Source: Nitrosospira multiformis (GTDB lineage Bacteria > Pseudomonadota > Gammaproteobacteria > Burkholderiales > Nitrosomonadaceae). Taken from it: a stretch of 64,000 nt of DNA. A program made the position numbers and the translations under genes. The notes beneath the pieces are model-generated. The model was not told the origin of the DNA, did no database searches, and was given only the letters and a program-made list of their open reading frames with translations. The stretch is taken from the NCBI RefSeq assembly GCF_900103165.1, contig NZ_FNKY01000001.1, positions 3,224,001 to 3,288,000 of the forward strand, read 5' to 3'. This document shows, in pieces, positions 20,601 through 23,119 of the stretch. Position 1 is the first letter of the stretch, and the number at the start of each line of letters is the position of its first letter.

Positions 20601-21181
20601 CAGAAGTTGGTCGCAGCGTGACGACCTTCCTTCTGCCCGACGAGTATCAACGGATTGGTCGGTCTTGCACCGGCCTTCCATTGCTTCCCCTCCGATCATT
20701 CGCTTTTAACGGTTCAACTAGGAGATTTTCATGGAAAACACGACACATCCATATTAATCCGCGTTTAATCAGCAAAACTGGTGCGAACACTCGCGGAATC
20801 GTTTGGCACCCGCACTGAAACCATTTTTATCGAAGGCGACCCTAGTAAAGAAATCGTAGGGTAGCTGCTGAACAGGAAGCCGATCTTGATCCGCGGCCGC
20901 ATGGCTATTCAGGGTGAAACCATTTTACTTTGGGAAGCATTGCGGAATATGTTGTCAGGCACGCTCCCTGCCCGGCGCTCACTATCAAACCCACGGTAGC
21001 CAACAGATCTGAGCTCCGCACTTCGCCTGTCTTGCCAAGAAACGATTAAGGCGGGGATGTTTTGCCTAGACTCTAGAACAAGATGCTCGCATCTGTTTTT
21101 TATCGGCAGGACATCGAATACATGCAGCTCCAATTTCCTGACAGAATCGAAAGCCTTCCATTGAGGTGAATCACTATGCGC
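20601..21181. other. Gene-poor stretch with decayed coding fragments
   Basis: No intact gene is seen. A 31-codon fragment at 20769-20864 (+) reads SAKLVRTLAESFGTRTET and continues IFIEGDPSKEIVG; it looks protein-like but has no start codon and is not identified. The rest has frequent stops on both strands. Together with the TraF-like relic this suggests an eroded mobile region. Confidence 0.4.
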
Positions 21182-21187
21182 CTCATC

Positions 21188-21225
21188 TAAGGGTTTCCCT
21201 TAGAGCAAAATAAGGGTTTCCCTAA
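21188..21225. promoter_or_regulatory. Two copies of palindrome TAAGGGTTTCCCTTA
   Basis: TAAGGG-TTT-CCCTTA (21188-21202) and TAAGGG-TTT-CCCTAA (21211-21225) are direct repeats of a palindrome whose starts are 23 bases apart, about two helical turns. That spacing suits paired operator sites. Downstream at 21244-21258 a ribosome-site-like GAGGAAATTAAT is followed by ATG and an immediate TAA, so whatever gene they served has been lost or replaced. Confidence 0.45.
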
Positions 21226-21267
21226 TACCATTTTTATTGCGAGGAAATTAATATGTAATCGTATTTG

Positions 21268-21360
21268 GGACTCTGACCACCCGTCCATCGGCGCAATGCC
21301 GGTTTAATCAGGACTCTGACCATTCGTCCGGCAGCAAAAAGGGACTCTGACCATCCGTCC
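21268..21360. repeat. Array 1 of the 19-bp motif GGACTCTGACCAYYCGTCC (3 copies)
   Basis: Copies at 21268-21286, 21311-21329 and 21342-21360. Each begins GGAC and ends GTCC, so the ends can pair. Between the first two lies CGGCGCAATGCCGG, able to form a small hairpin. The last copy starts 56 bases before the ATG of the following gene. Confidence 0.85.
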
Positions 21361-21363
21361 AAA

Positions 21364-21378
21364 TTGATTTTTAATCAA
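21364..21378. promoter_or_regulatory. Palindrome TTGATT-TTT-AATCAA before the ribosome site
   Basis: This inverted repeat sits between the 19-bp motif array and the AGGAGA ribosome site. It is repeated at 21944-21958, and as TTGAT-CTA-ATCAA at 22665-22677, where the arms still pair although the centre has changed. It could be an operator or a leader hairpin. Confidence 0.45.
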
Positions 21379-21397
21379 ATGGAACAGGAGAATCAAA

Positions 21398-21820
21398 ATG
21401 GCAACGACACTCGGCACAAAAGTAAAAGATACTTTTGCAGTTTTATCCCTGCTTGGTTTATTGGCTGTGGGTGCACCCACAAGCACCGTAAAAGCAGAAA
21501 ACCTCCCTGAATCAACTATTCAGGCCGCACCATCCTCAAACGAGCACAGCGTTTTGGCGAAGCGTTTTGAAGATGCCGCCCGGGAAATGCAGGCAAAGGC
21601 AGATGAGCAGAAGATGCTACTTGAACAGTACGAGCAGACAAATCTGTATGGCTGGCAATCTCGTAATTTGAAATCGCATACCGCAGCTTTGATACGCAAG
21701 TATGAGCAAGCGGCGTGGGCCAACATGAAGGAAGCCATGGCCCATCGCCAAATGGCGCAACAATCTCAGCCAGGTTACGCGATTCATGGCGGCGAAATGC
21801 CGCAAACAGGACGTAACTGA
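21398..21820 (+). CDS. Small exported coiled-coil protein, paralog 1
   Basis: A 140-residue protein with a signal peptide (TFAVLSLLGLLAVGAPTSTVKA, cleavage after about residue 30) and a helical, charged mature part (KRFEDAAREMQAKADEQKML, LEQYEQTNLYGWQSRNLKSH, LIRKYEQAAWANMKEAMAHR). It is probably periplasmic and alpha-helical. AGGAGA lies 7 bases before the ATG. Two paralogs follow in tandem with nearly identical signal peptides. I recognise no named family, and function is unknown. Confidence 0.75.
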   Translation: MATTLGTKVKDTFAVLSLLGLLAVGAPTSTVKAENLPESTIQAAPSSNEHSVLAKRFEDAAREMQAKADEQKMLLEQYEQTNLYGWQSRNLKSHTAALIRKYEQAAWANMKEAMAHRQMAQQSQPGYAIHGGEMPQTGRN

Positions 21821-21879
21821 TGCCGTACTTGGCTTGGCAGAACAAACTCGGAGGCTCCCGTAGTTTGCCTGTCATCTTA

Positions 21880-21941
21880 GGACTCTGACCACCCGTCCAT
21901 CGGCGCAATGCCGGCTTAATCAGGACTCTGACCATCCGTCC
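21880..21941. repeat. Array 2 of the 19-bp motif (2 copies)
   Basis: Copies at 21880-21898 and 21923-21941, separated by the same hairpin-capable CGGCGCAATGCCGG sequence and the same 43-base step as in array 1. The last copy starts 55 bases before the next ATG. Confidence 0.85.
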
Positions 21942-21977
21942 AATTGATTTTTAATCAAATGGAACAGGAGAATCAAA

Positions 21978-22340
21978 ATGGCAACGACACTCGGCACAAA
22001 AGCAAAAGATACTTTTGCGGTTTTATCCCTGCTTGGTTTATTGGCTGTGGGTGCGCCCATGAGCACCGTAAAAGCAGAAAATCTTCTTGAATCAGCAATT
22101 CAGACTGTGTCATCCTCAAATGAGCACAGCGTTTTGGCGAAAAACCCTAAAGATACCGCCAAAGAAATGCAGGTAAAGATGGACGAGCAGAAAAGATTAT
22201 TGGAGCACTACGAGGATAAAAGCTACCTTTATGGCAAGCGGGCACAAGACTTGCGATCGCACACTTCAGCATTGATACGCAAGTATGAGCAAGCTGCGTG
22301 GAGTCAACAAATGAAAGAAACGACGCTTATCGCCAGATGA
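21978..22340 (+). CDS. Small exported coiled-coil protein, paralog 2 (C-terminus frameshifted)
   Basis: A 120-residue paralog of the preceding gene with an almost identical signal peptide. The body reads DTAKEMQVKMDEQKRLLEHY, then LYGKRAQDLRSHTSALIRKYEQAAW. After MKET the frame diverges from the other two copies and stops early. Shifting by one base at about 22320 restores the conserved AYRQMTQ continuation, so a single-base deletion relative to paralog 1 is likely. It may still be made and exported because the signal and most of the helix remain. Confidence 0.65.
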   Translation: MATTLGTKAKDTFAVLSLLGLLAVGAPMSTVKAENLLESAIQTVSSSNEHSVLAKNPKDTAKEMQVKMDEQKRLLEHYEDKSYLYGKRAQDLRSHTSALIRKYEQAAWSQQMKETTLIAR

Positions 22341-22515
22341 CGCAAATTCTTATCCAATCATCAATAAATTATCACTCCACAGATAATGCAATACTGATTG
22401 GCCATGATATAAGCTATTTGATCCATCTGGATTGTCATCTTTCTGTGAAGTAATTATAATGGTAATTAATAAATCGTTCTGAATATGCTAACTTTTCCCA
22501 TTTGGCTGTCATCTA
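22341..22515. other. Spacer after paralog 2
   Basis: AT-rich non-coding DNA. The first part, in the shifted frame, continues the lost C-terminal region of paralog 2; the rest shows no recognisable feature before array 3. Confidence 0.4.
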
Positions 22516-22660
22516 GGACTCTGACCACCCGTCCGTAGCAGGACTCTGAATACCTGTCCGTCGGCGCAATGCCGGTTTATATCAAGGACTCTGACCACCC
22601 GTCCAATGTGAGGACTCTGACCATTCGTCCGGCAGAAAAAGGGACTCTGACTATCCGTCC
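22516..22660. repeat. Array 3 of the 19-bp motif (5 copies)
   Basis: Copies at 22516-22534, 22541-22559 (variant, GAATACCTG in place of GACCACCCG), 22586-22604, 22612-22630 and 22642-22660. The hairpin-capable CGGCGCAATGCCGG lies between the second and third. The last copy starts 55 bases before the ATG of paralog 3. Steps of 25, 45, 26 and 30 bases differ from arrays 1 and 2, so this is not a uniform tandem repeat. Confidence 0.85.
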
Positions 22661-22696
22661 CATATTGATCTAATCAAGTGGAACAAGAGAATCATA

Positions 22697-23119
22697 ATGG
22701 TAACGACACTCGGCAAAAAGGCAAAAGATACTTTTGCGGTTTTGTCCCTGCTTGGTTTATTGGCTGTAGGTACGTCCATAAGCAGCGTAAAAGCAGACAA
22801 TCTTCCTGATCAATCGGCTATTCAGACTGCGGTATCTCCAAGTGAGCATAGCGTTTTGGCGAGGCGTTTTGAGGAGGCCGCCAAGGAAATGCAGGTAAAG
22901 GCGGATAAGCAGAAAATACTACTGGAGCACTACGAGAATAAAAGCTACCTTTATGGCAAACGGGCGCAAGACTTGCAATCACACACTTCAGCGTTGATAC
23001 GCATGTATGAGAAAGGTGCTCGGTTATATATGAAGGAAGCTATCGCTCATTGTCAAATGTCGCAGAGTGTTAATTTGCCGGGTAAGCATCGGAGTGATGC
23101 CCATTGCACTCTTCCATGA
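22697..23119 (+). CDS. Small exported coiled-coil protein, paralog 3
   Basis: A 140-residue member of the same set. The signal peptide is conserved (DTFAVLSLLGLLAVGTSISS) and the mature part contains RRFEEAAKEMQVKADKQKIL, LYGKRAQDLQSHTSALIRMY and KEAIAHCQMSQ. The C-terminal tail (GKHRSDAHCTLP) differs from paralog 1 and holds a cysteine, as does AHCQ. It has the largest upstream motif array of the three. The set is probably a local gene amplification that kept its regulatory region. Confidence 0.72.
   Translation: MVTTLGKKAKDTFAVLSLLGLLAVGTSISSVKADNLPDQSAIQTAVSPSEHSVLARRFEEAAKEMQVKADKQKILLEHYENKSYLYGKRAQDLQSHTSALIRMYEKGARLYMKEAIAHCQMSQSVNLPGKHRSDAHCTLP

Follow-up and report, generated by a model that had tools for sequence, protein, structure and literature searches.

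The 19-nt repeats in front of three paralogous genes of Nitrosospira multiformis form a real, conserved and clade-limited regulatory array, which has neither an Rfam entry nor a description in the literature searched. At a probability of roughly 55%, we read the repeats as recognition sites that are arrayed within the transcribed 5' leaders of a small Nitrosospira and Nitrosovibrio gene set, exerting control after initiation; here we infer transcription, action as RNA, a binding factor and a switch at the ribosome site. More tentatively, it might be argued that expandable arrays of 19-nt RNA units, together with the ribosome site and the first codons, make up a portable leader module shared by singleton amoC genes and an exported helical family, and as such represent an undescribed class of post-transcriptional control.

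Ammonia oxidisers drive nitrification and the release of nitrous oxide from soil. To our knowledge, little is known about how they control their monooxygenase genes after transcription start. The array ties singleton amoC and a part of an expanded exported-protein family into one candidate regulon. With a copy number of 2 to 14 the dosage of the control element is directly testable, and the motif is specific enough in sequence for capturing its partner.

Three arrays before three paralogues

The window, the whole stretch of 64,000 nt that was analysed, is part of a 3.5-Mb genome in a genus of which 23 genomes were examined. It contains three paralogous genes, each preceded by an array of the motif. 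The sequence-only reading had counted 3, 2 and 5 copies, and these ten are borne out against 0.05 expected in shuffles; eight are exact, one has a single mismatch and one has three. All lie on the + strand, as do the three genes and the leader features listed in the next paragraph. The idea that the array encodes a repeated peptide was rejected by inspection, as many steps (e.g. 34 and 26) are not multiples of three and one motif frame contains TGA.

Upstream of array 1 lie the dyad CTAAGGGTTTCCCTTAG of a putative promoter element (21187-21203), common to array-free relatives of the gene family, and the element GGTTTCCC (21215-21254), with a -10-like TTAATAT at 21248-21254 that ends 13 nt before the first motif. 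Array 1 (21268-21360) consists of copies at 21268-21286, 21311-21329 and 21342-21360, and its spacer holds an inverted repeat, CGGCGCAATGCCG (21289-21301), which is found again in array 2 (21901-21913) and array 3 (22562-22574). Between array and ribosome site stands the palindrome TTGATTTTTAATCAA (21364-21378), followed by a Shine-Dalgarno-like AGGAG (21386-21390) and gene 1 (21398-21820), which codes for a small exported-looking helical protein of 140 aa, the fold being predicted on gene 3. Array 2 (21880-21941) has copies at 21880-21898 and 21923-21941; behind it lie the same palindrome TTGATTTTTAATCAA (21944-21958) and gene 2 (21978-22340, 120 aa), whose C-terminus, judging from the alignment, is read in a different frame from paralogues 1 and 3. 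Upstream of array 3 a sigma-70-like promoter, TTGTCA-17-TATAAT (11/12), is located at 22432-22460. This array (22516-22660) has copies at 22516-22534, 22541-22559, 22586-22604, 22612-22630 and 22642-22660, and is followed by a palindrome with a changed centre, TTGATCTAATCAA (22665-22677), and by gene 3 (22697-23119), again for a small exported-looking helical protein of 140 aa. Promoter-like sites between 21000 and 23300 number 3 against 3.4 expected in shuffles, a count that is not significant.

Next after gene 3 comes a small multidrug resistance (SMR) gene (PF00893). Just upstream of the arrays, 20781-20935 holds what is left of a broken universal stress protein gene, and full-length relatives of this gene adjoin arrays in loci L013, L017 and L022.

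The distance between the last motif and the ATG had been given as 56, 55 and 55 nt. These values are correct if counted from the start of the last motif and do not hold from its end, from where 37, 36 and 36 nt are obtained. Likewise, the TTGAT..ATCAA palindrome is indeed present in all three leaders, including the one with a changed centre. The argument built on its kept symmetry is weak, however, because whole classes of array-led genes are without it: by inspection, neither the three amoC leaders nor the RidA-type leader, L021 or L023+ contain the palindrome, and in some further leaders it is partly broken.

Spread of the motif and genes behind the arrays

A script with stated thresholds, run on the fetched loci, yields 133 motif copies with 48 different sequences, arranged in 29 clusters and present in 6 of the 23 Nitrosospira/Nitrosovibrio genomes; one more copy (GGGT/GCCC, in L016) falls outside these thresholds. 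The 29 clusters exclude the single copy of L025 (genome G021) and count two at contig ends of G014, namely the one-copy first cluster on the minus strand of L016 and the cluster of L020, which may be one split array. Complete arrays comprise 2 to 14 copies. The window's genome alone carries 43 copies in nine clusters (10 copies in the window, 9 in L013 and 24 in L014). A motif scattered over this genome without link to genes was looked for and not found, all 34 matches with at most two mismatches being confined to three regions.

Intact genes follow 24 of the 29 clusters, 20 belonging to the small helical family, three being amoC, the gene for subunit C of ammonia monooxygenase, and one being of RidA type. 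Four clusters (the second and third of L013, the first and third of L017) have no intact gene start nearby, and one (L020) ends at a contig end. Behind the third cluster of L013 and the first of L017 the next long ORF is a universal stress protein, starting 216-227 nt further on.

When 41 genomes were searched with up to two mismatches, seven matched, all of the Nitrosospira/Nitrosovibrio genus; one of these, G021, has a single two-mismatch match counted as chance, which leaves 6 of the 23 genomes with arrays. A permissive search of the 17 array-free genomes gave 18 matches, and these are taken as chance because a reversed-pattern control gave a similar number (15). In a tandem-pattern scan of 84,980 genomes (one per species, a set that possibly leaves out the window's own record) matches were found in Nitrosospira/Nitrosovibrio only. 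They concern 11 stretches, carried by Nitrosospira sp. NpAV, N. multiformis Nl7, Nitrosospira sp. 56-18, Nitrosospira sp. Nl5 and Nitrosovibrio sp. Nv17.

The sequence-only reading had offered as an alternative that the copies were bound by a transposase and mark the ends of an insertion element since lost. Sub-terminal repeated transposase sites are known in some elements, and L013 does contain an ORF with a transposase domain (PF05598), about 2.7 kb from the nearest copy; none was noticed among the other listed ORFs, of which the profile search covered a minority. Against this, the motif maps show no inverted second end, and neither the tandem-pattern scan of viral contigs nor a DNA search of plasmids with leader 1 gave a match. 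Moreover, recurrent clusters are found in 6 genomes in front of unrelated genes, at a similar distance to the ATG and always sense to the next intact gene, which makes a lost element hardly credible.

Each of the 23 genomes has between 3 and 24 matches to the small helical family, the window's genome having 22, and relatives at 34-49% identity are carried by methanotroph plasmids. The earlier description of these proteins as short, exported and helical and of no known family agrees with our results: they look exported by inspection, helices are predicted, and no Pfam or NCBIfam match above cut-off was obtained. In the structure predicted for gene 3, an N-terminal helix is followed by a stretch of low confidence and then by a two-helix hairpin predicted with confidence (pLDDT >90 over most of the hairpin; pTM 0.59). 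A PDB search with this model gave generic helical hairpins only, the best match having an E of 0.51, and therefore no function can be assigned from the fold.

The other two gene types are readily recognised. All three array-led AmoC match PF04896 at E <1e-125, so that their identity is firm, and the RidA-type protein is assigned to PF01042. AmoC of L018 and L024 share 91 and 93% identity with AmoC of L015; for other full-length AmoC of the genus the values are 83-86% or 70-76%. In the three genomes with array-led amoC, draft assemblies in which the amo operons look badly assembled, amoA matches (PF02461) lie on other contigs only, and none was found in G014. As far as seen, the array-led amoC genes are singletons. 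No motif copy was found, even at up to five mismatches, in the upstream stretches of other amoC genes in 24 loci (23 distinct ones, L036 lying inside L075; in L073 no gene start was found).

Some further elements were noted at these loci. Upstream of other amoC genes, in L057-L060, another repeated element, CTGGTAGTTT, with an A/T-rich flank, occurs twice. By eye, L017 holds an amoC-like relic, consisting of a leader of amoC type with the first codons but lacking an amoC ORF, and L013 holds a leader resembling the amoC type; L019 contains a C-terminal amoC fragment of 28 aa. A BBP2 porin gene lies between array-led small genes in L014 (5709-7094), L016 (4669-6033) and L023 (4396-5781). A glutathione S-transferase/metaxin-like gene is found near arrays of an amoC locus and of small-protein loci alike (L014 502-1215, L015 4583-5284, L023 8232-8948), with a similar ORF in L020 by eye.

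Conservation of the motif, start region and promoter-like sequence

Mismatch rates were determined for four pairs of related clusters (L013-1 being used in two), with gap columns excluded. The motif differs at 2.2, 1.8, 3.5 and 5.1% of positions, the linkers between copies at 14.1, 22.2, 16.7 and 29.8%. Between the last motif and the ATG the rates are 2.7, 0, 16.7 and 2.7%, and in the first six codons none of 72 positions is mismatched across the four pairs. Rates rise again in the rest of the coding sequence (14.4, 10.9, 13.8 and 14.0%), and the 120 nt upstream show 16-38%. In the fourth pair 16 gap columns fall inside the motif, one array missing a copy. Motif and start region are thus conserved above their surroundings. 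Together with the presence of clusters before three unrelated gene types, this upholds the earlier proposal of a functional regulatory region that was copied along with the gene.

Position and orientation are equally constant. The motif is sense to the next intact gene in all 24 clusters that have one, and the distance from the end of the last copy to the ATG is 29-43 nt, in 18 of the 24 being 36-38 nt. A selfish or passive tandem repeat, spread by slippage and gene duplication and without function, would be in line with the wide range of copy numbers (2 to 14), the evident tandem duplication with the gene and the confinement to one clade. Such a repeat would not be expected to be better conserved than linkers and coding sequence, to keep its distance to the ATG before unrelated genes, or to have the arms of its last copy intact before 24 of 24 intact genes, and we regard this explanation as improbable.

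The conserved start region extends into the protein. A start pattern M-[AV]-[TVM]-[TAILS]-[LF]-[GA] is present in 20 of 20 array-led members of the small family against 0 of 31 array-free ones, counted over the 51 members in fetched loci with a pattern composed after seeing them. Since AmoC N-termini also tend to M-[AS]-T, an amoC-like gene may have been the source from which array, ribosome site and first codons were jointly acquired. On a protein tree built without the first 40 residues, array carriage needs 4 changes (bootstrap 3-5) compared to 15.9 with shuffled labels. Six array carriers constitute one well-supported group and the rest are placed elsewhere with weak support; a single origin of the carriers may agree with the starred branches of the tree.

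Promoter-like sequence was found by pattern upstream of 13 of the 28 clusters tested (all except the one-copy cluster at a contig end): seven cases are of GGTTTCC type, four of TTGACA-N16/18 type and two of GGAAnT-N17 type. The three patterns, of which A and C were composed after seeing the sequences, match 9, 6 and 3 of 1,522 bins of 130 nt, arrays included. The third type, GGAAnT-N17-TCTAAYAT, which we take to resemble extracytoplasmic-function promoters, was recognised by eye before three more clusters. The 15 clusters that match no pattern are made up of window array 3 with its own TTGTCA site, three by-eye cases and eleven without a nameable promoter, several of the latter being second arrays in tandem gene rows. 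Because promoter-like sequence lies upstream of about half of them, the arrays are probably transcribed.

In the seven GGTTTCC-type cases the -10-like TTAATAT ends at +40, and from there to the first copy it is 13-14 nt, or 46 nt in two cases. Thirteen array-free relatives of the small family have a GGTTTCC[CT] element, then a TAGGAT hexamer ending at +40 (11 cases) or +41 (2 cases), and then the gene. The spacing is alike with and without array, and therefore the array sits between the same promoter and gene. Before the array-free members (in L014, L016, L019, L023, L026, L028, L031, L032, L034, L039, L040 and L045) the element is accompanied by an upstream CTAAGGG..CTTAG-like dyad, at near-fixed spacing to TAGGAT. 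Judged by this sequence pattern, these genes are a candidate regulon of an activator.

Action as RNA or DNA and relation to known systems

In 125 of the 133 copies all four arm pairs of GGAC/GTCC are kept, including four copies in which they read GGGC/GCCC, and in 8 an arm pair is broken. The two-sided change to GGGC/GCCC is seen only in the copies that lead related arrays, and a single event may account for it; one wobble copy is found among the arm changes. Twelve copies have an interior of 12 instead of 11 nt, and in 11 of these GGAC/GTCC is kept. Where an intact gene follows, the last copy has intact arms in every cluster (24 of 24), compared to 2 of 4 clusters without such a gene.

Leader RNA stability above that of shuffles was not found (z of +0.66, +3.56 and -0.53; mean z of +0.24 over 24 leaders), and an 11-copy array folds worse than 100 of 100 shuffles. 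In 22 of the 24 leaders the stem of the last copy itself forms with a probability of less than 0.15. Pairing of the last copy with the ribosome site is part of the minimum free energy structure in 19 of the 24. Motif and ribosome site have on average 4.70 expected pairs compared to 2.79 with a shuffled motif, though for individual leaders between 2 and 85 of 100 shuffled motifs do equally well; the ATG offset of L024 is one base off in this analysis and two in the leader-fold analysis. Helical phase is absent from the unique step lengths (Rayleigh p 0.44-0.88), and the R of 0.28-0.41 over all 104 steps is inflated by repeated steps.

Multi-copy sites are common for DNA-binding regulators, and the array might be a DNA operator in the transcribed leader, bound by a dimer on the GGAC/GTCC half-sites or by an asymmetric monomer and serving as road-block or nucleation array. 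The arms do form a dyad, GGAC-N11-GTCC, which changes together in four copies, RNA folding is not favoured, and kept arms around a changed interior also fit a two-part DNA site. Less easily accommodated are the conserved interior TCTGA..A, whose asymmetric sequence always has the same orientation to the next intact gene, the interior length of 11 or 12 nt with arms kept, the steps without helical phasing and the differing promoter types upstream. We consider an operator doubtful, though the most serious of the alternatives. Overall, RNA action appears favoured over DNA action by about two to one because of position, orientation, more than one promoter type, arms kept with a 12-nt interior, the GGGC/GCCC change, the wobble copy and the lack of phasing.

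If the repeats are RNA recognition sites, as we prefer, each 19-nt copy (about GGAC-UCUGA-NN-A-YYY-GUCC) would be one unit of recognition for a trans-acting factor. An RNA-binding protein is the likeliest such factor, a small RNA being less likely. The copy number (2 to 14 in complete arrays) would then set avidity, and a bound factor would alter how well the mRNA is translated or how long it survives. The ribosome site GGAAYAGGAG is in many leaders predicted to pair with the 3' half of the last copy, and occupancy of this copy might free or block the start.

Several known leaders share part of this layout. CsrA/Rsm leaders and CsrB-type RNAs likewise carry many short GGA-bearing sites with the last near the ribosome site, whereas the conserved interior of our motif differs from the CsrA consensus. 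A CsrA-regulated leader was considered and rejected: a search for CsrA (PF02599) was negative in all 23 genomes of the genus and positive in 3 of 14 controls, and GGA lies in the 5' arm, not exposed in a hairpin loop. This arm has a low pairing probability in most leaders. Leaders of TRAP type with repeated trinucleotides resemble the arrays as a row of short RNA sites giving avidity, but the unit there is a spaced triplet, here 19 nt with paired arms. ANTAR sites comprise two hairpins with six-base loops and are coupled to a terminator; 2-14 copies and interiors of 11-12 nt set our arrays apart. The likeness to tandem stem-loop leaders of the EutV type (PMC3369931) would lie in small leader hairpins bound by a protein.

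The leader position, the conserved interior and the tandem layout could also suit a metabolite-binding riboswitch array, each copy being a tiny aptamer and the tandem giving a steep response. A 4-bp stem enclosing 11 nt would make a very small aptamer, however, and we know of no precedent for up to 14 copies. Covariance models of Rfam 15 gave no match up to E=1 at the arrays searched, those in the window and in six loci. This explanation is thus very improbable. The guanidine-II (mini-ykkC) riboswitch also has tandem small leader hairpins, and the window has an SMR gene (PF00893) behind gene 3. Unlike that riboswitch, the window stretch has no Rfam match at E<=1, the arrays precede small-protein genes, and the interval from gene 3 to the SMR gene is free of motif copies.

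The array element is not described in the accessible parts of the literature searched on Nitrosospira, amoC upstream regions, riboswitches and tandem leaders, including PMC5960693 and PMC4964001. Literature matches to the first 12 letters of the motif concern, by their titles, mammalian topics only. As a separate observation, L021 does contain a guanidine-I riboswitch, at 388-493 on the minus strand, with a score of 94 bits.
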